IMG/VR virus record: IMGVR_UViG_3300019742_000002
Coordinates: 1-64,000 of that record
Source of the DNA: a virus
Length of the DNA stretch: 64,000 nt
Strand: one strand, 5' to 3'
A program made the translations under genes and the position numbers. Shown here one piece after another: positions 4,888-63,237 of this stretch; positions within the stretch are counted from its first letter, which is position 1, and the number at the start of each line of letters is the position of its first letter. The notes beneath the pieces are model-generated. The model was not told the origin of the DNA, ran no database searches, and saw only the letters and a list, made by a program, of their open reading frames with translations.

Positions 4888-5130
4888 TTAATCTTTTATT
4901 CTATCAATATACTCTTCCAAATCAAATATAGATGTCTTTAGATTTTCTATTTGGTCATTATGAAATTTATATCTCATCTTTAGTTCATCTAAATGTTTGT
5001 TATTGTGATTCTTATCCATTAATAAATTATCTATTTCATAAATCCTTTCTTTATGTTCTTCAATTTGCTCATAATTTTCTTTAATCTTCTCTCTAGTTGA
5101 TTCTATTTCTTTAGTATTATATGAACTCAT
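4888..5130 (-). CDS. Hypothetical coiled-coil protein (80 aa)
   Basis: ATG at 5130, overlapping the stop of 5127-6224 by 4 bases (ATGA), so translation is coupled. Nearly the whole protein is one charged helix with heptad-like spacing (TREKIKENYEQIEEHKERIY, then LKMRYKFHNDQIENLKTSI), which predicts a coiled coil. Partner unknown. Confidence 0.6.
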   Translation of the reverse strand: MSSYNTKEIESTREKIKENYEQIEEHKERIYEIDNLLMDKNHNNKHLDELKMRYKFHNDQIENLKTSIFDLEEYIDRIKD

Positions 5131-6224
5131 AGTGAAATCCTATCTATAATTTTTCTAACCTTATCAGAAGATACATTCTTAGGATTTGTAAATAATTCAG
5201 AAACCTTTTGTTTAGCTTCTGTTTTGGTATATGTTGGTAATATCTCAACACTATCTACTATCATACAAGAAGTTCCATTAAAATCTACAGCATATTTACC
5301 ATTAATTTCACCATAATATATAGCTTGTGTCTCAAAGCCATCATCTCTTTTAGCTAGAACTATATCACCTTGTTTGACAGGTTTTTTAGTTGGTTTTAGT
5401 AAAGCTTCCTCATAAGAGATAACTTTAAAATCACCTGATACTAAAAAATCTAATGTACTATCATAAACTGTATAGTTATTATAGCCATCATTTGATATAT
5501 CAAGACAAGTTTTGTCATCGTGCATATATAAAAATTTATCTAACGGTATTTTTAAAATATTATTATTCAACCATCTTAACAATTCTCTATATTTTTCCTC
5601 AGTATCACAATGTACAGCTACATCACTCAGTAGCAAATCTTTATTAAACTCTACCAAATTTACTTCTTTAGTTGGTTTTAGTAAAGCTTCTTTATAGGAG
5701 ATAACTTTATATTTATCTCTTATAAATCTATCTTTATTATCATCAACAATATATTCACTATGTATATCATCATATATTAAAATACAAGTATTCTCTTTAT
5801 GTTTATATAAAAAACTATCCAATTGTATATTAAAAACATTAGAATTAATCCACTTCAATAATTCTCTATATTTTTCTTGGGTATCACAATGTACAGCTAT
5901 ATTACCACTAAGCGAATCTAAATCAAATTCTACCATTTTATTATCCAAATCTAAATCGTATTTTCTCTTAATATCTTTAAATTGAACAACATCGAGACTT
6001 CTATCTTTATAGTAATCAATATGTGCATTACATACAGTTCTATGTACTATATAAAACATACCACAATCTTCATTAACTAACCATTTTTCTTCAAGACTAG
6101 TATCTATTTTTATATCTTTGTATAAGGATGATAATAAAACCTCCAATTCTTTAGCTTCCTCTTTAGTTTCGCAATGAATACCTATTTTCTTATTGATAAT
6201 TGTATCTAAATCAAACTCTACCAT
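5127..6224 (-). CDS. Hypothetical protein with three tandem about 93-residue repeats (365 aa)
   Basis: ATG at 6224 behind AAAGGAAATAAA. Three repeats begin near residues 1, 97 and 189. Each has VEF(D/N)xD, a strand with IHC or VHC, then (D/E)T(Q/E/K)E and a helix (EKYRELLKWINSN in the second). Single copies of this VAVHCDTEE-type domain are common in small phage proteins of unknown role. Here it is triplicated, and a C-terminal segment GDIVLAKRDDGFETQAIYYG adds a small beta-rich domain. The repeats probably arose by duplication within the gene. Function unknown. Confidence 0.6.
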   Translation of the reverse strand: MVEFDLDTIINKKIGIHCETKEEAKELEVLLSSLYKDIKIDTSLEEKWLVNEDCGMFYIVHRTVCNAHIDYYKDRSLDVVQFKDIKRKYDLDLDNKMVEFDLDSLSGNIAVHCDTQEKYRELLKWINSNVFNIQLDSFLYKHKENTCILIYDDIHSEYIVDDNKDRFIRDKYKVISYKEALLKPTKEVNLVEFNKDLLLSDVAVHCDTEEKYRELLRWLNNNILKIPLDKFLYMHDDKTCLDISNDGYNNYTVYDSTLDFLVSGDFKVISYEEALLKPTKKPVKQGDIVLAKRDDGFETQAIYYGEINGKYAVDFNGTSCMIVDSVEILPTYTKTEAKQKVSELFTNPKNVSSDKVRKIIDRISL

Positions 6225-6698: not shown

Positions 6699-9600
6699 AT
6701 GCTAACAATAGTACCGTATCAATTGGATACAATTAAAGAAGATTTAAAAACAAAGGCTGTAGGATTAGGATATACTGACGCTATACAAGAGGGTTCTAAT
6801 ATTTCACAATTAATAAATCTTCTTAGTTATGCTACTTTATACCCTAACTTAAACTTTACTTTTGGATTAAATGAGATGTTTTTAACACAAGCCACTGACA
6901 GAGCTAATGTTCTAAAACACGCAAGAGATAAAGGATATATTAGTAAAAGAATGCAATCGTATCAATATAAAATTAAACTATTGACTAATAAATATGGTGA
7001 AATTACATTAAATAAATACCAACAATTTTCATCTAATGGAAATAATTATATCTATATGGGGGACTCTATCACAAATGTATATGGAAACTATGCTTATATT
7101 AAGCTACTTTCTAACGAATTTAATAATAGCTTAGATAATACCTATATTGATAATATTTTAGAAGAATCTAATATAGTTACAGAAGATGGTCAGGTTTGTT
7201 ATATATATAGCAAAGAGATTGGAACTTCTAACAAATTGTTAATAAAAACATTAGATGATGAGGATTTACCTATATTTTCTACACTTCCAAAAGAAATCTA
7301 TACACACGATGGAACATATTCAGGAGGATATAGAAATCTTCAAAAAGTCGGTGAAATTGATTCTTATATTACCTCTACTGATGGAAATGAATTTAAGATA
7401 CAAATTACAACGGATACACCCGGAGATTTTCCTATATTTACGGAAGTTATTGAAAATAAAGCACTAAATCAAAATGGTTCTATATTTAAGTTTGATACTG
7501 ATGTAGCAAATCCAATCAAATATATAAAATCTATAGTAGTGGACTCCTCATCAGAGAGTATAGATTTACTTAGTGTAGAATATAATGAAGGTGATTATAA
7601 TGCTAGTATACCAACAGGTCAATTATCTATTATAGAAAACCATCCAAATACCGATATATCCACTGATGTAGATTTTAATGCTAATATAGATACTACTCAC
7701 AATATTATAGAATTAACAGGGGTACAATTAGTAAAAGGTTCAAATAATATAGATATATCTACGAACGATTTAAGTTTTATAGGTAATACAATCTCTATAT
7801 TACAACAATCATATCAAGATACTGAATCTAAAATTGTAAGTGGTTCTACTATCCAATTAACACAAGATAATATAGATATAGTTCTTTATGTTATTATTAG
7901 AAGTACCTCATCAACTCTTATAAGTAATTTTAGTTGGACTACCGATGGAGTTATAACAATTTTAGATGAATTTAATGCACCTGATACACAATATGATGGA
8001 TTAAATGTAGATATTGATTTTAAATATATAGAGGATTATACAAATGTTGATGATATTAACATATCCTATACATATAATAACAATACACTTGCAGGTGAAC
8101 CAATAACAGTGACTTATGAATATGATATTGGAGGTGATGGATTCTTAGATAAAAAGTTTTTCTTTAGTGATTTAAGAGGTGAATATTTAGATAATGAGAC
8201 TAATTGGGAAGGTTTTTATGCAAATTCTTTTGACCCCGAAACATCCATATTAACCTTTGATATATCAGGTACTAATAATTTATATGTTAGTATAGAAAAT
8301 AATGGAATTTTTGAAGACCCTTTGCAATTGAATGAAGCTATAGAATCTCCTTATAGAAGGACTAGGTTTTCAAATGGTGTTGTATTCGACGAGAGTACTT
8401 GTTTTGCTTCTATAAATAACACAGAACTAAAAAACACAATAGAGATAGTTGTGAAAGAGGGTGAATTAAGAAGATATAGTGATGTGGATGATTTATCAGA
8501 ACCTTTGTATCCAAATCAAACTTTTATTATTAATAATGATATGGAAGATTCGGGATATTTTATGATAGATGCTGATACTATTGAAAATAATGGTATTGAG
8601 ATGTTTGTAACAAGAACTATAGATGATGGTTCTTTAGTGACTGATGAGGTTTGGACTAAAAGAGAGCTTTTGTTACCTGAGAAAAAACTAGAAGAGGATA
8701 AGACTTTTATTATACTATCTGACTTAAATTACGAAAATTATGTAAATATCTATACTAGATATGCAGGAACAGGAACGGCTTTAGGGTTAGGTTCAACTAT
8801 TAAATTGAATATGATATATTCAAGTGGTTCAAATGGATTTACTAATGATATAATAGAACCTATTGATAATACTGATTTTATTGGAACAATGTATGATGAG
8901 GATTTAAATATCCCTAATATTGTCTATATAGAGGGGTCTGATAAAGAATCCACACAAGATATAAAAGATAATGCTTTATTATTTAACAATACAGCATCAA
9001 GAGCCGTTACCAAAAATGATTATTTAACAATAGTAAATTCTCAGCCATTTATAGGGGATACTGAAATTTGGGGTGGAGAGGATATAGTACCTACACCTGT
9101 ACCCGGTCATATATATATAACGGCTATACCAACATCTAAACCTAGTGATTTTGTTCTAATTAATAATGAGTATATATTAACATCTACTAACACAGATTTA
9201 TTCTACCCTACATATTATCAAATAACAGGTAAAGATAGTTATATAGACTATGATGCAAGTACAGAAGCTGAGGTATTATTTAATATTATAGATAAATATA
9301 AAGTAATGACACTACAATTGGATTATGTTAAAACTATTTATTTAGATTTTAAGTTAGATATAAGGATTCTTAAGAAAACTTTCTTTAAGAGTACTGAGGA
9401 GATAAATGATGAGATGTTTAATAAGATAAAGGATTATTTCTATACTAATATAGAGACATATAACTCAAACTTCTTCAACTCAACAACAACAAAATATATA
9501 GATTCGGTTCTAGGTGATGATTTTGGTTTTGAAATGAATGTAGATTTTAGTGTGGAGTTGTTTGATTATATAGACGACCCCGATAGAGGAGTTTTTACCA

Positions 9601-10494: not shown

Positions 10495-11049
10495 TTATTC
10501 GATTTCATTTGAGTAATCCCAAAATTCATCTACGGTCATATCCATGGCTTCAGGTTTAATATCTATTTTTGGGTTACTCTTTTTAACTTTTCTAACTTTT
10601 GGTAATGTTACATTACTTCTTTTTATTGATAAACCATTACTATTAGATAATCTTATGACTTTATGATTATAAGTATCTTGTAAAATATAATGTTTTGATA
10701 TGTTTATTCTATTCCTTATATCTAAATATCCCACTTTTCCGTTAGTTAATCTAAGAGTTGATATAATAGTTAATATATTATCTTGCCTTGTGATTAGTAT
10801 ATAGTAATCTCTATCTCTCCAATCTTTAAAATTAACAACTATTGAACTATTACCAAAACTTAATAATCCGTACCTTATAGATAATTTAACAATATCCTTA
10901 TAGTCACCTTTCAATAAGTCCATATCCCTTGATGTCAAAGAATCTTCATATCTTCCTTTATATGAATGAATTGATTTATTCACAATTAATGTTTTATGTT
11001 GCATTTCAATTGTAAAATATTTAACACTTTTATGTATAGAGTTTCTCAT
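10495..11049 (-). CDS. Hypothetical protein (184 aa)
   Basis: ATG at 11049 behind AAAGGAAATTT, transcribed from the minus-strand promoter at 11099-11078. It is mostly beta-like in the first 130 residues (KTLIVNKSIHSYKGRYEDS, SSIVVNFKDWRDRDYYILIT), with a basic linker SNVTLPKVRKVKKSNPK and an acidic end. A single early gene lying between two late baseplate genes. No family recognised. Confidence 0.65.
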   Translation of the reverse strand: MRNSIHKSVKYFTIEMQHKTLIVNKSIHSYKGRYEDSLTSRDMDLLKGDYKDIVKLSIRYGLLSFGNSSIVVNFKDWRDRDYYILITRQDNILTIISTLRLTNGKVGYLDIRNRINISKHYILQDTYNHKVIRLSNSNGLSIKRSNVTLPKVRKVKKSNPKIDIKPEAMDMTVDEFWDYSNEIE

Positions 11050-11077
11050 AAATTTCCTTTATCTTTTAATATATCTA

Positions 11078-11111
11078 ATTATATCCACTTAAACTTAAAG
11101 TTTTATAAATA
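11078..11111. promoter_or_regulatory. Divergent early (-) and late (+) promoter pair
   Basis: The minus strand has TTTAAGTTTA (11099-11090) and TATAAT (11083-11078). The plus strand has TATAAATA at 11104-11111, 22 bases before the ATG of 11133. Confidence 0.65.
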
Positions 11112-11132
11112 TCTCTAAAAAGGAGTATAAAT

Positions 11133-13049
11133 ATGGATGAAACTTTAATACCCGAAAATTTTAAAGATATTGATAATATAGCTAAATCTATGGAAATCTA
11201 TACAGAGGGTAGTAAAGAACTAAATAAACTTACTCTAAATCCTATAGATTTACTAGATATTGATTTTCTTATAGACAAATATAATACAACTCTTAATGAA
11301 AATTACAGTAAAATCAAGGAAGAACTTTTCAAGATACACTTAAATGAGGTGTATAATGTCTTTGAACAGGCACAAGAATCAGAAGATATTTACAACAAGC
11401 TTAAAGAGGTTTATAGTTATTATGGAATAACTGATGAGGTAAAGTTAGGGTATCAATTAGAGGATACTATAAATCAAGAATATATAGATTCATCACGAGA
11501 ATACAAAACATCTAAAGGTAGAAAAAAAGCTTTTTATTTCATACACGATATTATAAATAAGGTTAATCTTCAAGAGATAGATAATACAAATTTTATAGAT
11601 ATTATAGAGGGTTCAAATATAGACCCAAATTTACCATATCATTATACAATTAAAACAGCCTTATATAAAGAGGTTGTTGAGGAAACTTTAATACCTCTTG
11701 CTCATCCTTTAGGTTTTATATATTCTTTTATTAAATTTATAGAAACTAGTTTTGAGGATTATTTTAATTTAGATGTTACCGAAGAGATAGGAGACCTTTT
11801 TACCAATTGTTATTCTGAAAGTGGTATTATTCAAACCCCAATAGACGAAACTAATTTCGGTGTACTTTCAAATTATGAAGAAATAACAAGTATCGTAGAT
11901 TCTACCAATAGAGTCGTATTAGATTTTAACGCCATTAACCCTTTTGTACCTCTTGCAATAGAGGATGGTTTTAGATTAGTTAAAGATTATAATGGTTCTT
12001 TATATAAATTCGATAAGCAACTCAAAAAAACAGTAGGATTAGATATAGAGTATCTAAGAATTTCTGAAATAGAGATAGAGGATGGAATGGGTGAATATGA
12101 GATTTTTATGTTTAGTAATGAAATGGACGCTATAGAGCTTATTAGATTCCAACTATATAGAGTACAAGATATTACTGATTTAATTGTTAAATTTAAAATT
12201 AAGGATGATTTACCTAATAAATGGTACATATCTAATATACCTTTGAATAATACCAATATTTATGATGATAGATTATATGATTATAACTTAATAACACCAG
12301 CTAATATTTTTGAGAATGCCTTAGACTATGACGGAAAATTTGTAGAGGAATATACTGATTGTGAGCTTATATTCAATCGTACATATACATATATAGTTAT
12401 CACGGATGATTCGGAATTCACTAATAAAAAACTAAAAAATACCTATGAATATTGGTCAAGATTAACTATGTATAATATACCTCTAGTTTGTACTACATAC
12501 GATTCTATAGACAATCCTTTATACGATTATAATGAATCTATAGAATCTTACTATGCTTATTGTGAAAATACTGAAAATATAAGATATGATGACCCAGATA
12601 ATTCTTATGATGATGAAAATATAGTATATGAAAGTAGTGGACAATTAGGTGTTTATGACGATAATATGATTTATGATGAAGATGGTGTATATGATGATGA
12701 GAATAAAAAACATATATTACATAGATTTGATACAGGGTATAACTCAACATTAGATAATAATAACCTTCCTAGTATTGTTGGTAGAATGGAACACTACTTT
12801 GCACCTGATTACCAAACAGATTTGGACTTAATAAGTTCTCCAACACTTTTACAAGATTACATAGATGGAAATATAGGAAATGATGAGTATTCAGCTAGAG
12901 AGGATTTTATAATGGGTGTTTATATTGGAGGTGTTTTACAAATTGATAATAATATAGGTGCTTTGGTTAGAGATATAAAATATGATGAGATTAATGCTTT
13001 AGGTATAGAGTCTAAATATGATAGTGTTGATGATTTTTATAAATATTAA
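11133..13049 (+). CDS. Virion structural protein, candidate baseplate wedge component (638 aa)
   Basis: Late promoter at 11104 and AAAAAGGAG ribosome site. It follows gene 6, the position of wedge genes 7 and 8 in T4. The first 240 residues are helical; SREYKTSKGRKKAFYFIHDI and PLAHPLGFIYSFIKFI resemble segments of other phage baseplate or tail proteins. The second half is extremely rich in Asp, Tyr and Asn (for example YDDNMIYDEDGVYDDE), like tail proteins that fold with ions. I cannot place it in a named family. A clear terminator follows at 13047. Confidence 0.6.
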   Translation: MDETLIPENFKDIDNIAKSMEIYTEGSKELNKLTLNPIDLLDIDFLIDKYNTTLNENYSKIKEELFKIHLNEVYNVFEQAQESEDIYNKLKEVYSYYGITDEVKLGYQLEDTINQEYIDSSREYKTSKGRKKAFYFIHDIINKVNLQEIDNTNFIDIIEGSNIDPNLPYHYTIKTALYKEVVEETLIPLAHPLGFIYSFIKFIETSFEDYFNLDVTEEIGDLFTNCYSESGIIQTPIDETNFGVLSNYEEITSIVDSTNRVVLDFNAINPFVPLAIEDGFRLVKDYNGSLYKFDKQLKKTVGLDIEYLRISEIEIEDGMGEYEIFMFSNEMDAIELIRFQLYRVQDITDLIVKFKIKDDLPNKWYISNIPLNNTNIYDDRLYDYNLITPANIFENALDYDGKFVEEYTDCELIFNRTYTYIVITDDSEFTNKKLKNTYEYWSRLTMYNIPLVCTTYDSIDNPLYDYNESIESYYAYCENTENIRYDDPDNSYDDENIVYESSGQLGVYDDNMIYDEDGVYDDENKKHILHRFDTGYNSTLDNNNLPSIVGRMEHYFAPDYQTDLDLISSPTLLQDYIDGNIGNDEYSAREDFIMGVYIGGVLQIDNNIGALVRDIKYDEINALGIESKYDSVDDFYKY

Positions 13050-21134: not shown

Positions 21135-21209
21135 AAAAAATCTTTTATATCCAATAAGAAACTTTACTAGGCTCAACTTATTGGATATAAAAGATTTTTT
21201 GAGCCTAGT
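21135..21209 (+). ncRNA. Leader RNA folding as an H-type pseudoknot
   Basis: A perfect 24-bp inverted repeat (21135-21158 with 21177-21200) encloses an 18-base loop. The loop part ACTAGGCTCAA (21166-21176) is perfectly complementary to TTGAGCCTAGT at 21199-21209, just past the stem. The order A-B-A'-B' is that of an H-type pseudoknot. The stem ends in TTTTTT, so it could also act as an intrinsic terminator or attenuator. It sits between promoter 21094-21126 and gene 21245. The same topology precedes the polymerase-like gene at 48181. The pairing is seen directly; the function is open. Confidence 0.6.
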
Positions 21210-21244
21210 AACTCAAATATCTTAATTAAAATTTAAGGTTATAA

Positions 21245-22018
21245 ATGAAATATACAACTCCAAAAATACCACACGAGGATTTATTCTTCAAAGATGTAAA
21301 ATTTAAAACTACAGGTTATTATGTAAAAAGATTTCCAAAAGAATTGGAAGAGTTTCTTATTATGGATTTAGATTTAAAACATTCAAAAAGATACTACATT
21401 GATTCAGTTTATAGATTCTATATAGATAATTTAGAAGAATTAAAAACAGATATTACTCCTTTTATAGAATTTTATAAATCCAATAATAAATTTTATGGTA
21501 AACCTACAATAGCTAAAACATATCCTGAATTATTAGAACAATGGATAGAGGCTACCAAAAAAACTGAATATACAGTAGAAAAATTATATGAATTATGTAT
21601 AAAAGGAGCTTTACCAAAACCAAGAGAAAAATATAATAAAATGATAGTGGATTCTTTATGTGATGAAGCAAAAGAAGAATTTAATAAAGGTGTTAAATTG
21701 TCTTTTGTTATAAGAAAATATATTAATAAAGAAGATATTAATACTCTTTGTAAATCTTGTGGTAAACCAGTTAAACAATTAACAAATGAGTGTTTAGATT
21801 GTACTAAAAGTTTAAAGCAAAAAAGAGCTTCTAAGAAAAGAGGTTTAAGAATGTTAGAAGATAAACCTTCTTATGTTAGTGTTGTAAAAGGTGATGTATT
21901 TTCAGAAGATATTCGTAGAGAAAGACTTACGATTAAATGTTCTAATTGTAATAGAGAATTTTCTTATGTATTGAACTTAGGTAAGAGACACCTATTCTGT
22001 CCAATATGTGATAAATAA
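21245..22018 (+). CDS. Zinc-ribbon protein of unknown function (257 aa)
   Basis: ATG at 21245 behind TTTAAGGTTATAA, after the pseudoknot leader. The first about 170 residues are basic and mostly helical (KDVKFKTTGYYVKRFPKELE, LEQWIEATKKTEYTVEKLYE). The last 90 hold two Cys sets: CKSCGKP with CLDC, and IKCSNCNREF with LFCPICDK, so two zinc ribbons or one split one. Such proteins often bind nucleic acid. It has no TATAAATA promoter although it lies next to the capsid gene. A 15-bp hairpin terminator follows. No family recognised. Confidence 0.65.
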   Translation: MKYTTPKIPHEDLFFKDVKFKTTGYYVKRFPKELEEFLIMDLDLKHSKRYYIDSVYRFYIDNLEELKTDITPFIEFYKSNNKFYGKPTIAKTYPELLEQWIEATKKTEYTVEKLYELCIKGALPKPREKYNKMIVDSLCDEAKEEFNKGVKLSFVIRKYINKEDINTLCKSCGKPVKQLTNECLDCTKSLKQKRASKKRGLRMLEDKPSYVSVVKGDVFSEDIRRERLTIKCSNCNREFSYVLNLGKRHLFCPICDK

Positions 22019-22740: not shown

Positions 22741-22797
22741 TCTATATCCTTTGTGTTTTAATATTATAATTATAGTCAAATAAACTTAAGATAAAAT

Positions 22798-22932
22798 AAA
22801 AAGTATCTACGATTGAATATATTAATTTATATTTTTTAAAATTTTTTATTTTTTCTTTATTATAAGAGTTTTTATTTACAAATTTTGATTATTATAAGTT
22901 TTTGTTATAGTTTTAATCTTAGATGGTTTTAT
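22798..22932 (-). repeat. Dispersed about 130-bp repeat, copy A
   Basis: Reads on the minus strand as the family consensus: CATCTAAGATTAAAAC, two boxes of the form AAAAAC(TC)TTATAATAA, an A/T-rich middle with AAAATTTT, and the end TATTCAATCGTAGATACTT. Inverted relative to copy B, with a spacer homologous to that between copies E and F. Confidence 0.75.
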
Positions 22933-23084
22933 TATAAATGGGTATAGTATATGATTTAAGAGTTCATTAATCTATTTTGATAGTAGGTATGAGTTAGGTT
23001 ATTTAAAGAGGTTTAAAGGTGGTTTATAAGTGTGAATGAGTATTATTATATCTATATAAAATTGGAATAGTAGAAATTAAATAA
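22933..23084. other. Spacer between inverted repeat copies A and B
   Basis: No gene. The sequence AGGTTTAAAGGTGGTTTAT and its surroundings match, in inverted orientation, the spacer 62885-63060 (TTTAAAGTGGTTTAAAGGTA there). Conservation of a gene-free spacer suggests a cis-acting role. Confidence 0.55.
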
Positions 23085-23214
23085 CTACAAGATTATATCT
23101 ATAACAAAAACTTATAATAATTAAAATTTGTAAATAAAAACTCTTATAATAAAGAAAAAGAATTAAAAATTTTAAAAAATATAAATTATTATATTCAATC
23201 GTAGATACTTTTTT
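23085..23214 (+). repeat. Dispersed about 130-bp repeat, copy B
   Basis: Plus-strand copy with the boxes AAAAACTTATAATAATTAAAA and AAAAACTCTTATAATAAAG and the end ATTCAATCGTAGATACTTTT. It forms a large inverted repeat with copy A. Bases 23215-23340 beyond it hold no gene; AAAAGGGAAGTGTCTTGAAGTA resembles sequence downstream of copy C (AAGGGAAGCACTTTG). Confidence 0.75.
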
Positions 23215-23340
23215 ATTTTAATCAACTATAGTAAAATGAGTAAAACTTATATTAAAATTTAAAAGGGAAGTGTCTTGAAGTAAAAAATAAATTAACAAGA
23301 AAACTAATCACTTTAGTAATCTTATTAATTATTATATCAA

Positions 23341-46387: not shown

Positions 46388-48181
46388 CTATAGAAGAGCT
46401 ACCTTGGTGTATATAAATCTATCAAGAGTCATAAAACCTTTGAGTAACTGTAAACTATAGATAGTATTTGTTATTAGTTTGATAAAGAGCATCTTTCTAA
46501 TATTGTTCTTAAATCTTTTAACCCCTATCTTAATACCCTTTTTAATAGAGTGAATTAATTTAGCTCTTTTTCTTCTTTTAATAAACTCTTTTCTCTTTTT
46601 TTCTGATTCAAAATATTTAATATAACTTCTAGTTTCAGAAAAATCTATTATTTGATTGTTTAATTTCAACATCTTTTGAATTTCTTTAATATCAGTTAAT
46701 TCAAGTTTAGAAATTTCATTAATAGGAATAAGAAGTCCATCATGTACATTTACTATATGTTCAATTTTAATTTTTTTAGTACCTAGGTATGCTTTAAGAG
46801 AATTCATAATTTTAGTTTCTTCTAACATAAACATTCTTGAAATATTTTCATATCCTAAATTTCTAGCTATAATATCTAATTCTTTCATTTCTGAATTAAA
46901 ATCTTTATAAAAAGTTGAAAGTTTAAGTGCATCATGTACAGTTTTATCATCTTTTGTATTTCTATTAAAAGGAGTTAAATGTCTTCCAAATATAGCACTA
47001 AGATACTCCATTTTAAACATAGACCTAAATTCAATCTTTTTGTTAGCTCCTTGTTTACCTCTAATATTATCAATTGTATCTACATTGGACTCAATAATCT
47101 TTTTTCTATTTTTTATATATTCAATAAGACAAGGATAGTTAATAGGGTCTATATTATGGTTCTCAAAACAATTCTTTATTAATCTTGGTGCGGCATTTTC
47201 TAAATCAAATTCAATATAATCTCTAAATAATCCATTTCTTATTTTTTTAGGAATCTGATTTAAAATATCAAAAATTCTACCAGAAGATGTAAATGTTCTA
47301 TTAAAATAAATATGTTCATCTACTATATTTTTTCTTATTAATTTCATAGAATTAATATATCTTCTTCTTTGAGCTGGGTATCTCATATATCCTATATCAT
47401 TATCTAATTCATCGAGAATCTCTAAGTAATTATTGGGTAATTTAAATTTTATAATATCTTTGTAATTTTCCTTAGGAACTTCTCTTGGAATATTTTTAGA
47501 TTTAGATGTAGTTACATCATCAGAGAGTCTCATTATAACCATATCAATAGGTTTTAGAGGTTTTTGTTTAGAGGCTATATCATAAAACTCCTGATATTTG
47601 GCTAGAGAAATAGTACCATTTAGAACTTTTTTAAGAATAGTATCTACTTTTTGGACTTTTGAATATACTTGGTTACTGTTGTCATAAGGATTGTTTAAAA
47701 ATTCATAAGAAGAACAACCTGAACCATCAAAAGAATTACCTCTTCTTGTTTGATTAAGATAAAGGTTATAGAAATCTCTATATGATACAAAAGAAGATAG
47801 GGATTTTTTAAGGTAGGTATTACTAAGAGCAAGGTCACCTGTTAATTCATGAACTGAATGAGCAGAAGAAAGTAGTTTAGAAATAGATTTTAGAACATTG
47901 ATTGATAGGTTATATTTAATATATTTTTTTGCACTTTTAAATTGAATCATATCTTGAACAATACTAGGATGTGGAACTATAGAGTAACTTCTTTTTTGTT
48001 TTTCTATATTAGTAAAGGTTTTATCTGATTTAATTGCAGTATGAACTTGAATAATAGCCTCTTTTGGATTAAGGATATTTTTAATGTAGTAATAATCCTT
48101 GTGGATTGTAAGATATGTTAGGTCATAATTAAATGGATTGGTAAGTATATAATCTTTGAGGTTTTCTTTTTTAATTTTCAT
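46388..48181 (-). CDS. Divergent family-A (Pol I-like) polymerase homologue
   Basis: 597 aa. Residues 296-333 read FTSSGRIFDILNQIPKKIRN ... DYIEFDLENAAPRLI, matching the Pol I layout TGRLSS..PNLQNIP followed by motif A (catalytic Asp 326, Arg 333). Residues 374-400 with R, K and a final AIFGR fit motif B (RxxxKxxxFGxxYG), and NVHDGLLIP (His 480, Asp 481) fits motif C. No 3'-5' exonuclease motif is visible in the first 250 residues, and the C-terminal 80 are basic. T4-type phages replicate with a family-B enzyme, so this is a second, specialised polymerase. Late promoter and pseudoknot leader precede it. Template and product unknown. Confidence 0.6.
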   Translation of the reverse strand: MKIKKENLKDYILTNPFNYDLTYLTIHKDYYYIKNILNPKEAIIQVHTAIKSDKTFTNIEKQKRSYSIVPHPSIVQDMIQFKSAKKYIKYNLSINVLKSISKLLSSAHSVHELTGDLALSNTYLKKSLSSFVSYRDFYNLYLNQTRRGNSFDGSGCSSYEFLNNPYDNSNQVYSKVQKVDTILKKVLNGTISLAKYQEFYDIASKQKPLKPIDMVIMRLSDDVTTSKSKNIPREVPKENYKDIIKFKLPNNYLEILDELDNDIGYMRYPAQRRRYINSMKLIRKNIVDEHIYFNRTFTSSGRIFDILNQIPKKIRNGLFRDYIEFDLENAAPRLIKNCFENHNIDPINYPCLIEYIKNRKKIIESNVDTIDNIRGKQGANKKIEFRSMFKMEYLSAIFGRHLTPFNRNTKDDKTVHDALKLSTFYKDFNSEMKELDIIARNLGYENISRMFMLEETKIMNSLKAYLGTKKIKIEHIVNVHDGLLIPINEISKLELTDIKEIQKMLKLNNQIIDFSETRSYIKYFESEKKRKEFIKRRKRAKLIHSIKKGIKIGVKRFKNNIRKMLFIKLITNTIYSLQLLKGFMTLDRFIYTKVALL

Positions 48182-48207
48182 CTAATTCTCCTTTTTTATT
48201 TAGTCAA

Positions 48208-48289
48208 AAGTAGAATGCTGTCCTACTTCTTAAGAGAGTTCATATCAAGTGGTAGGACAGCAAAAGCACCTGTATATGAACTCTCTTAA
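48208..48289 (-). ncRNA. Leader RNA of the polymerase-like gene, H-type pseudoknot
   Basis: On the minus strand, reading downstream: TTAAGAGAGTTCATAT (48289-48274), 12 bases, GCTGTCCTAC (48261-48252), 6 bases, ATATGAACTCTCTTAA (48245-48230), 3 bases, GTAGGACAGC (48226-48217). The two perfect pairings (16 bp and 10 bp) interlock as A-B-A'-B'. An alternative hairpin AAGTAG/CTACTT (48228-48223 with 48213-48208), followed by TT, would compete with the second stem. The ATG comes 27 bases later behind AAAAAAGGAG. Pairing is seen; function is unknown. Confidence 0.65.
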
Positions 48290-48300
48290 AGACTTTATGT

Positions 48301-48308
48301 TATTTATA
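48301..48308 (-). promoter_or_regulatory. Late promoter (TATAAATA) of the polymerase-like gene
   Basis: Minus-strand TATAAATA then ACATAAAG. The start would be near 48294, just 5 bases before the first pseudoknot arm. Confidence 0.6.
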
Positions 48309-48318
48309 TATTTATTTC

Positions 48319-48359
48319 TAGTAAGATATTGGTTTATCTATATTACCAATATCTTACTA
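48319..48359. terminator. 15-bp perfect hairpin
   Basis: TAGTAAGATATTGGT (48319-48333) pairs with ACCAATATCTTACTA (48345-48359), loop of 11. No T run on either side, so it may stabilise RNA ends or block read-through into the polymerase leader. Confidence 0.6.
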
Positions 48360-48394
48360 TTCTTATTCTCTATACCTTAGCAGAGAATAAGAAT
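48359..48394. terminator. 13-bp perfect hairpin at the end of 48370-48870
   Basis: ATTCTTATTCTCT (48359-48371) with AGAGAATAAGAAT (48382-48394). The stop codon of the gene lies at the loop edge. Abuts the 15-bp hairpin, so together with the pseudoknot the segment 48208-48394 is almost wholly structured. Confidence 0.6.
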
Positions 48395-48870
48395 ACCATT
48401 TCGTCGCTGTTTTTTTTATAACTGTCAAAATTTGAGTTATTAAATATACTAGAACTACTAACATCTTTAAAAACTTGCTCCATTTCATCTTTAGAGATAC
48501 TTTTAGTTGATATAGATATATGGAAATATATCTTTCCATTTTTATAATCAACTAACTTCATATCAAATTTATGTATGTCCATTTTATTTAAAGTATTATT
48601 CAAGTATCTAATATCTTTATTTATCTTTATGGTTTTATCAAACTCTATATCTTTTGTTGTTATTAAGTCTTTAGAGGTTACTTTATCTATATTACCGTTT
48701 TTAATATAGATAACTCTAGCTTCTGTTGGAGATACAAATTTATCAAAAAAACCTATTTGACCGTCTACAGTTATAAATTTATCGTATACCTCAAATTCAT
48801 TAAAATTACCTTTACCCTCATTTAAGCTCATTTTCACAAACTCACTAAATCTCATATTTATTTTTTTCAC
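48370..48870 (-). CDS. Putative internal head protein with capsid-targeting-like N-terminus (166 aa)
   Basis: GTG start at 48870, 5 bases after AAGGAG. The N-terminus NMRFSEFVKMSLNEGKGNF has the F..F(V/I)...LNE pattern shared with 13104 and 15010 and like the T4 packaging signal, with LNE as a possible prohead-protease site. After it comes a small beta domain (YDKFITVDGQIGFFDKFVSP) and an alpha/beta part (KIYFHISISTKSISKDEMEQ). Early-type promoter upstream. Role inferred. Confidence 0.5.
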   Translation of the reverse strand: MKKINMRFSEFVKMSLNEGKGNFNEFEVYDKFITVDGQIGFFDKFVSPTEARVIYIKNGNIDKVTSKDLITTKDIEFDKTIKINKDIRYLNNTLNKMDIHKFDMKLVDYKNGKIYFHISISTKSISKDEMEQVFKDVSSSSIFNNSNFDSYKKNSDEMVFLFSAKV

Positions 48871-49977: not shown

Positions 49978-51087
49978 CTAAAACTCCCACAAAATCTCAT
50001 CAAATTCATCATAACATGGCACAGTAAAACTTCTCATCATACCAAGATATACATTATCATGGATAAATTTACCTTTTCTTTCACTTGCTCTTTGTTTAAT
50101 AATTTCCAAAGATGTACAAAATATGATGGACTTTTTGTGATAGTCTTTAGGGATAGAGTGAAGCCATTTTCGTCTTGATTTAATACTAAGATTTGTCATA
50201 TCAATAATAATATTTTCTCTATCTTTAACAGCCTTTTGGAACTTCTTTTGGACTAATTTATCAATCTCTTTGTGTAGGTCATTTTCGGTTAGATATTTCC
50301 AAGCTTGATTATAGTTCATATTATCGTCTATTTTAGAAATATAATCCATCATAGTATTATCTCTACTAATTACAACCTCATCTTTAATATTGTTTTTTAT
50401 GTATGTAGATTTACCTGATGAGGGTAATCCTGTCAATAAAGTTATATTTTTACTTTTATTAATAATAGGTTCATTTGAGGTGTATTTTAGAAAGGTATCT
50501 TCATTAAAAATATCTTTACCTAATCTAAGAGTATCCTCTTTTTTTGAAAATTCATCACCAAATCTTCCTAAAGAATCATATTTAACTTGATTTACAAGTG
50601 TGTAGTAATCCTCTATATCTCTGAATTTAGAAACTAACTTTTCTGGTTTATATTCCATTCCATCTTTAATATGATTAAAAAGAGTTCCGTGTAATGAAAT
50701 AGCATTAAGAATTTCTGACTTTTCTTCATCACTTAATTCAATTTCTTTTTGAAGATTATTAAGAATTTCTATAGCTAACCAAAAGGAGATTCCTTCGTGT
50801 CCTTTAAAAAATGTGCGTTGTTTCTCATTATCAATTTCTAAAGATTTTGGTTTTCCTATATCGTGGAGTAAAGCCACAATTTTGTTAATTTTAGTAGCAT
50901 TATATAGTTCAGCTACTTTACAAACCATCATTAAATGTGTCCATATTTGTCCTTCTATATGATATGGGTTAATACTATCTTTGTAATGATGGGTACAACT
51001 TTCCATATCTTTTGTTAGCTTGGGTTGAGTTACTTGAAACCATTTTATTAGTTCGTTCATAGTTGGGTTTTGTTTATTTTTGAACAT
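49978..51087 (-). CDS. HD phosphohydrolase fused to P-loop polynucleotide kinase (369 aa)
   Basis: N-terminal HD domain: PYHIEGQIWTHLMM (His 43), LLHDIGKPKS (His 75, Asp 76), FKGHEG and SLHGTLFNH. C-terminal kinase: Walker A LLTGLPSSGKSTYI (about 217-230), IIIDMTNLS and a lid SERKGKFIHD. T4 joins a kinase to a HAD phosphatase in PseT for RNA end repair; here the partner is HD. The fusion suggests nucleic-acid end healing or nucleotide turnover. ATG at 51087, overlapping 51074-51511 by 14 bases. Confidence 0.7.
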   Translation of the reverse strand: MFKNKQNPTMNELIKWFQVTQPKLTKDMESCTHHYKDSINPYHIEGQIWTHLMMVCKVAELYNATKINKIVALLHDIGKPKSLEIDNEKQRTFFKGHEGISFWLAIEILNNLQKEIELSDEEKSEILNAISLHGTLFNHIKDGMEYKPEKLVSKFRDIEDYYTLVNQVKYDSLGRFGDEFSKKEDTLRLGKDIFNEDTFLKYTSNEPIINKSKNITLLTGLPSSGKSTYIKNNIKDEVVISRDNTMMDYISKIDDNMNYNQAWKYLTENDLHKEIDKLVQKKFQKAVKDRENIIIDMTNLSIKSRRKWLHSIPKDYHKKSIIFCTSLEIIKQRASERKGKFIHDNVYLGMMRSFTVPCYDEFDEILWEF

Positions 51088-62657: not shown

Positions 62658-62743
62658 GTTTTAATTCATTAATATATAACTATAAAAAGATACTCTTCAA
62701 TTAAACATAATAAATAATATCTATAGTTTACAGTTGCTCAAAA

Positions 62744-62884
62744 GAGTATCTACGATTAAATATATTAATTTATAACTTTTAAAATTTTTTATTCTTTTCT
62801 TTATTATAAGAGTTTTTATTTACAAATTTCACTTTTTATAAGTTTTTATTATATTTAAACTATTATATTCAATCGTAGATACTC
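62744..62884 (-). repeat. Dispersed about 130-bp repeat, copy E
   Basis: Both ends are near-perfect terminal inverted repeats (GAGTATCTACGATTAAATATA and TATATTCAATCGTAGATACTC). Minus-strand orientation. The second TTATAATAA box is altered to TTATAAAAAG. The nearby spacer 62885-63060 holds no gene. Confidence 0.7.
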
Positions 62885-63060
62885 TTTATAAATTTCATAT
62901 AGTAATTCACTTTATCTACTATAGTCAATCAAAACAATACTTCAATATAAACTATGTACTATTTAATCATCCATAAACTACCTTTAAACCACTTTAAATA
63001 ATATATCCTATACCTTACTATTAAAATCAATTAATAAAGCCTTAAAATACCCAATAAAAT

Positions 63061-63190
63061 CATCTATGATTAAAACTATAATAAAAACTTATAATAATCA
63101 AAATTTGTAAATAAAAACTCTTATAATAAAGAAAAAGAATTAAAAATTTTAAAAGCTATAAATTAATATATTCAATCGTAGATACTTTTT
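63061..63190 (+). repeat. Dispersed about 130-bp repeat, copy F
   Basis: Starts CATCTATGATTAAAAC, carries both TTATAATAA boxes, ends TTCAATCGTAGATACTTTTT. Inverted relative to copy E; their spacer matches that between copies A and B in inverted orientation. Confidence 0.75.
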
Positions 63191-63237
63191 TATTTTAAAT
63201 GATTAAGTAATTATATACTATAGATATTAAATGATGA

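Follow-up and report, generated by a model that had tools for sequence, protein, structure and literature searches.

A candidate mobile, homing-type gene of a T4-type phage encodes a family-A-like polymerase and follows an interlocked leader RNA

Introduction

What might a polymerase gene that resembles DNA polymerase I, preceded by a highly structured leader RNA, be doing in the genome of a T4-type phage? We studied this question on a 64,000-nucleotide stretch of viral DNA (positions 1 to 64,000 of the IMG/VR record IMGVR_UViG_3300019742_000002), referred to here as the window, which contains an intact 597-aa ORF. The reading toward which we lean is that this ORF would encode an active, minimal family-A-like polymerase of a mobile, homing-type gene that is not part of the replication machinery, is expressed late behind a two-state leader, and extends DNA at nicks or breaks.

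Sequence and fold of the 597-aa protein

The gene and the motifs of its product are located as follows.

46388..48181 (-): family-A-like polymerase gene, 597 aa; intact ORF, with homologues in G016, G009/G010, G002 and G014 and matches in a fold search
47193..47281 (-): GR-x8-P-x3-R-x2-(L/V)-F block through motif A (G301 to A330); ungapped spacing identical in the window, L054 and L069/L082
47180..47218 (-): motif A, IEFDLENAAPRLI, with the putative catalytic Asp 326 (invariant, n = 5; predicted strand 263-267 of the model)
46985..47026 (-): motif B, RSMFKMEYLSAIFG, with Lys 390; R-x3-K-x7-F-G in the window
46733..46750 (-): motif C, NVHDGL, with the putative catalytic Asp 481 (HD invariant; predicted beta-hairpin)
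46391..46594 (-): basic C-terminal tail, residues 530-597, in the same place as the HNH endonuclease of the G009 homologue

The GR pair, the motif A Asp and the motif C His-Asp pair are the defining residues of the family-A catalytic core found in Pol I and the T7 polymerases. In the 597-aa protein, SSGR occupies residues 299-302, NQIP residues 308-311 and VHDG residues 479-482, with D326 in between, just as the original prediction had placed them; the complete set consists of TSSGRIFDILNQIPKKIRNGLF, motif A IEFDLENAAPRLI (D326), motif B RSMFKMEYLSAIFG (R386-x3-K390-x7-F398-G399) and motif C NVHDGLLI (D481). That these motifs stand above chance follows from the match to a 542-aa homologue in G016 (25% identity over 443 aa, E 3e-33) and from their conservation in a five-way alignment of the window protein with four new homologues, whose identity to it is 16-27%: G301-R302, D326, Y355, N358, E455 and H480-D481 are invariant in all five sequences. 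Retention of the motif A Asp and of the motif C His-Asp at such low identity argues for an active enzyme. Motif B is more variable; K-x7-F-G is also present in G016 and a Lys can be aligned by hand in G002 and G014, but the corresponding region of G009 is clearly different and not conserved. Motif C reads VHDE in G016, NHDE in G002 and LHDA in G009. The great divergence of the family, the loss of motif B in G009 and the homing-type niches of the homologues (see below) would also fit a catalytically dead polymerase fold that acts as the DNA-binding or targeting domain of a homing system, as the non-nuclease parts of other homing endonucleases do; we regard this as quite unlikely in view of the invariant catalytic residues.

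In annotated collections the 597-aa protein is an orphan, because nothing meaningful was found for it in Pfam, PHROGs, PDB chains, 50,697 phage records and 72,556 plasmids. PF00476 (DNA_pol_A) gave no match to it at E 10 in searches whose positive controls rang, and in a profile-profile comparison with Escherichia coli Pol I and T7 gp5 the alignment was confined to the VHDE block and lacked significance. Formal membership in family A is weakened by these two results, and the protein is best termed family-A-like on the basis of its motifs and its modeled fold. Searches with tblastn in phage and plasmid records were empty or returned chance matches, and eight-residue back-translated searches of viral and genome collections yielded zero relatives of the window protein. 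Homologues came to light when relatives of the phage were fetched via its portal protein and their records searched, followed by a scan of IMG/VR with an ungapped motif pattern, to which we owe the G016 homologue. A gapped version of the pattern gave a single match, to a carbamoyltransferase, that we rejected as chance, and the matches of the ungapped GR-to-motif-A pattern in genome_contigs were discarded as chance frames.

Modeling with AF2 from the single sequence gave a pLDDT of 35, and a usable core was obtained only with the five-sequence alignment (pLDDT mostly 70-90 over residues 244-509, the N-terminal part being unmodelled). In this model, motif A falls on a strand and motif C on a beta-hairpin. 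In Foldseek searches of viral proteins it matched family-A-like proteins (E 1.3e-5 to 2e-3, prob 1.00), one of them named 'Putative DNA polymerase I' and another a phage RNA polymerase; in the PDB it matched KlenTaq (prob 0.92, E 0.11, TM about 0.3 with the N-terminal part unmodelled), human mitochondrial RNA polymerase, Taq and Pol nu, with E-values of only 0.1. Together with the conserved motifs, these matches favour the family-A-like palm that had been proposed from the sequence, and we consider it likely that the 597-aa protein contains a polymerase core. It would be a previously undescribed DNA-polymerase-I-like enzyme.

With the family-A DNA polymerases (Pol I/KlenTaq, T7 gp5 and phage Pol I-like proteins) the window protein shares the GR...P..R..F block, the motif A Asp, the Lys-FG of motif B and the HD(G/E) of motif C, and its model matches KlenTaq and viral Pol I-like proteins. 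It differs from them in the missing PF00476 match, in its family's motif A, D(L/I)xxA instead of DYSQIE, and in being found with homing-type genes. No exonuclease or proofreading domain was recognised in it, as had been noted at the outset, and no nuclease domain was detected in the protein by domain searches or beside its gene. A further difference is the absence of the steric-gate Glu: the position D+5 of motif A is A331 in the window protein and Ala, Leu or Ile in the homologues, so that the sugar choice of the polymerase is not predictable. The missing Glu, as well as the mitochondrial and phage RNA polymerases among the fold matches, could be taken to indicate a single-subunit RNA polymerase-like enzyme for late transcription. 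We consider this improbable, given that motif C is HDG, HDE or HDA and not HDS, that DNA polymerase I and viral Pol I-like proteins come closest in fold, that no promoter-binding domain was recognised, and that such a function would leave the HNH fusion and the intron niches of the homologues unexplained.

Homologues and their genomic niches

G009 and G010 encode an identical 731-aa homologue, the C-terminal third of which matches phage homing endonucleases of the HNH type (phrog_655, 2.9e-13, L054 residues 458-668; phrog_12434, 1.7e-12); this is the only homologue in which an HNH nuclease domain was found. Its gene is situated between those for the portal and the prohead protease. The start of the protease gene occurs a second time, in diverged form, ahead of the polymerase gene, and the two occurrences are direct repeats at a distance of 2,973 nt. 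The 447-aa homologue of G002, with GRLY, YDINTS and NHDE, is encoded at L050 9284-10627 between a piece of the tail sheath gene (8846-8884) and a group I core (10986-11318), and a second, decayed polymerase-HNH copy lies antisense in another interruption of this sheath gene, after residue 488. In G016, the sheath reading frame stops after residue 490 and adjoins the antisense polymerase gene; by analogy with G002, this break is presumably an intron. G014 carries a frameshifted copy between its sheath and portal genes. About six group I introns, which carry endonuclease and polymerase ORFs on both strands, divide the whole tail sheath gene of G002 (L050 937-14374) into at least seven pieces, and a perfect 23-nt direct repeat flanks the polymerase gene of G016 (L082 31-53 and 1835-1857), a possible insertion mark. 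Rfam reported no group II intron RNA around the polymerase genes, and no empty site was found for the window copy.

The loci of the homologues thus show sporadic insertion in or beside conserved genes, in G002 with group I introns, and a mix of intact, fused and broken copies of this kind is typical of selfish homing genes (PMC2988022, and general knowledge). Positions inside or between structural genes and next to group I introns, sporadic presence, decay, a late box, a structured leader, and the HNH domain of one homologue are all features shared with the homing endonuclease genes of T4-type phages (seg, mob, I-Tev; PMC2988022); the differences are that the window protein is a polymerase core without a recognised nuclease and that the Shine-Dalgarno sequence of its gene is not buried. 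These locations speak for a mobile, homing-type gene and not for the role in packaging, repair or defence evasion that had been envisaged. The polymerase gene is therefore probably of this mobile kind, and the window copy itself would then be mobile as well.

Might the phage instead use the protein as its regular polymerase for replication or repair, perhaps in place of a missing T4-type family-B enzyme, with the likeness to mobile genes being incidental? The catalytic residues are kept, the ORF is intact, and we found no family-B polymerase or gp43-like protein in the 91.7-kb record (no match to PF00136, DNA_pol_B) or in a 100-kb relative, although these records may be incomplete; the notion of a second polymerase beside a family-B enzyme accordingly did not find its counterpart in the record. 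Against such a standing function speak the sporadic occurrence of the homologues at different loci, their decay in G002 and G014, the fusion of one of them to a homing nuclease, the position of two in interrupted sheath genes, and the late box and homing-gene-type leader in place of early expression. We therefore judge it unlikely and retain the mobile, homing-type gene as the preferred reading.

The leader RNA of the polymerase gene

The leader (48182-48296) folds with -36.5 kcal/mol (z = -4.8), in agreement with the structured RNA originally proposed, and contains an interlocked a-b-a'-b' arrangement of two helices, S1 and S2, that had been missed. On the transcribed strand, the order of its elements is TATAAATA, S1a, S2a, S1b, S2b, Shine-Dalgarno sequence and ATG.

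48301..48308 (-): TATAAATA, late-promoter-like box, first base 19 nt before S1; the motif alone is common by chance
48274..48289 (-): S1 5' arm, 16/16 complementary
48252..48262 (-): S2 5' arm, within the S1 loop, 11/11 complementary; also supported by a swap test
48230..48245 (-): S1 3' arm, complementary to the S1 5' arm
48216..48226 (-): S2 3' arm, complementary to the S2 5' arm, end 34 nt before the ATG
48206..48230 (-): alternative hairpin S3 (48221-48230 / 48206-48215), a competitor of S2 according to the predicted fold
48188..48192 (-): Shine-Dalgarno sequence AGGAG, unpaired in the predicted fold

Inclusion of two upstream hairpins lowers the z-score to -9.3, but these hairpins probably belong to the end of the preceding gene. 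They are perfect tandem hairpins of 15 and 14 bp (48319-48395) and are probably terminator or 3' end structures. A terminator role of the leader itself was rejected because S2 is not followed by a U-tract. Rfam had no match at the leader, and an exact search with one leader arm gave 21 single matches that are apparently due to chance.

Late expression of the polymerase gene, which had been proposed on account of the TATAAATA box, is plausible. The box occurs 53 times in the window versus 39.7 expected, so that on its own it is weak evidence of a late promoter; better evidence is its spacing, as the three intact polymerase leaders all have it at a distance of 14-22 nt ahead of S1.

A leader class shared with homing endonuclease genes

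Besides several polymerase genes, many homing endonuclease genes from unrelated families are preceded by leaders of this architecture. The class is defined by the a-b-a'-b' double repeat, with an S1 of 16-26 bp and an S2 of 10-13 bp; its loci have no sequence in common, and compensatory changes occur within the helices. A strict scan of 334 kb of DNA from the phage and its relatives detected 10 interlocked repeats and none in five shuffles, and a relaxed scan of 382 kb gave 15 matches and none in ten shuffles. Each of these 15 lies ahead of a polymerase-like or a homing-endonuclease gene (one of the endonuclease genes being frameshifted). In the 12 leaders that we tabulated, the end of S2b is 26-37 nt away from the start codon. 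Among 473 ORFs, an interlocked leader is located before 10 of the 38 homing-endonuclease or polymerase ORFs and before 1 of the 435 others (Fisher p = 3.5e-11, a value that overstates independence since several leader matches are near-copies from overlapping phages).

A second member of the class lies in the window, and the G001 copy with which it is compared below comes from a relative with 99% portal identity.

21135..21211 (+): second leader, S1 24 bp, S2 13 bp; near-identical copy in G001
21245..22018 (+): truncated homing-endonuclease gene behind the second leader, 257 aa; intact in G001 with 550 aa

Relative to this leader, the G001 copy carries a double change in S2 that converts A-T to C-G. 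The endonuclease gene behind it is broken after 257 of 550 aa, and its leader is still perfect. The S2 sequence of the endonuclease leaders, at a constant position, is GGTCGGTTTA, GTCGTGGTTCTG, TAGCGGGGTTTA or CCGCCAGGTTG, and every version has a perfectly matching partner of its own. In a swap test, the true S2 partners paired over 10-13 bp and those from unrelated leaders over 3-8 bp.

Whether the leader stays with the polymerase gene has a mixed answer: it is kept beside the homologues of G009/G010 and G002 and is lacking at the polymerase gene of G016 (z = +1). Campylobacter phage F361 has neither leader nor polymerase motif. The presence of the leader next to the polymerase at three homologous loci would be in keeping with the proposal that the enzyme uses its leader RNA, or another dedicated molecule, as template and thereby serves packaging, repair or defence evasion. 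Yet a leader of this class is also found ahead of many endonuclease genes that have no polymerase, and it is therefore not a template dedicated to this enzyme; moreover, G016 has the polymerase without the leader, and no sequence is common to the leaders of different loci. We consider this proposal highly improbable.

A repeat at 88547-88680 of the record (G000; L045:4547-4680) was excluded from the class because of its 38-nt spacer and 75-nt distance. It is an interlocked inverted repeat of 18 perfect bp and 15 bp, maybe a distant form of the leader, and precedes an ORF (L045 4755-7457, +) for a 900-aa protein with primase-like and helicase-like stretches.

How the leader might act

In the tightest leaders, S1b and S2b are separated by 0-3 nt, and it follows from geometry that a single molecule cannot contain full-length S1 and S2 at once; for these cases we rejected a classical H-type pseudoknot in which both helices are full, as linkers of 0-3 nt cannot span an S1 of 16-24 bp. 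The S3 hairpin contains S2b in several leaders. The S1 hairpin would hold the 5' arm of S2 in its loop, with the 3' arm of S2 directly following, and the leader may thus be a two-state switch in which S1 (with S3) and S2 exclude each other, or may form a contact between the S1 and S3 loops. In the leaders of NUMOD-type endonuclease genes, TATAAT is present 9-10 nt before S1 in some, and TATAAATA within or just after S1b in all; with this placement, early transcripts would include the element in full, and late ones would retain just its 3' part.

Expression of T4 homing endonucleases is delayed via late promoters and leader hairpins (PMC2988022), a logic that the present leaders parallel, except that the Shine-Dalgarno sequence is not buried here. 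With the leader hairpins of I-TevI, segB, mobE and seg43(25) of Aeromonas phage 25 they share a strong 5' structure before mobile genes and early plus late promoters; they differ in having two interlocked, mutually exclusive helices plus a third hairpin and no sequence conserved between loci. The closest of these is seg43(25), in that its Shine-Dalgarno sequence is free. Most likely, the leader times or dampens the expression of homing-type genes. With a structure that is kept while the sequence of its 10-26 bp helices changes completely from locus to locus, it would be a new and clear example of selfish genes regulated by RNA.

A possible mechanism of spread

As far as we are aware, homing genes rely on the host phage for all of their DNA synthesis. 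In the mechanism that we propose, the window gene would be transcribed late, probably from the TATAAATA box, and its leader would time or dampen expression as in the homing-endonuclease class. The product, a minimal polymerase of palm and fingers, would aid the spread of its gene by extending DNA ends where a homing nuclease has nicked or broken the DNA; this nuclease is fused to the polymerase in G009/G010 and would be supplied in trans for the window copy. We offer such nick-primed synthesis as a tentative suggestion. A shade more speculative still is the idea of a new kind of mobile gene that has its own family-A polymerase, spreads by synthesis primed at an HNH-made nick or break, and shares a sequence-free two-state leader with homing endonuclease genes. 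It would be the DNA-polymerase counterpart of the group II intron proteins, which likewise combine a polymerase (a reverse transcriptase) and an HNH nuclease in one mobile-element protein, as G009/G010 does; the motifs are family-A-like here and not those of reverse transcriptases. How nicking HNH endonucleases of the mob type cause homing is an open question in the T4 literature (PMC2988022), and a homing-type gene family with a built-in polymerase, in one case fused to an HNH nuclease, would make it directly testable.

Additional observations

A reverse transcriptase gene (L044:10165-11247, -; record 74165-75247; RVT_1 5e-22, PADLOC RT_III-A 3.5e-33, YADD motif) is located directly after an HNH/NUMOD1 endonuclease gene, and the N-terminal segment of its product resembles the start of a neighbouring 806-aa AAA protein. 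Long imperfect inverted repeats are present in intergenic regions (window 22793-23218 and 62740-63191; L044 16425-16576), the last two with AGTATCTACGATTGAATATAATA-like arms. The ORF at 49978-51087 (-) of the window encodes an HD and AAA_33 protein that matches the polynucleotide kinase/phosphatase region of F361, and tandem imperfect direct repeats, about 280 nt apart, are found at 5382-5942 inside the ORF 5127-6224 (-).
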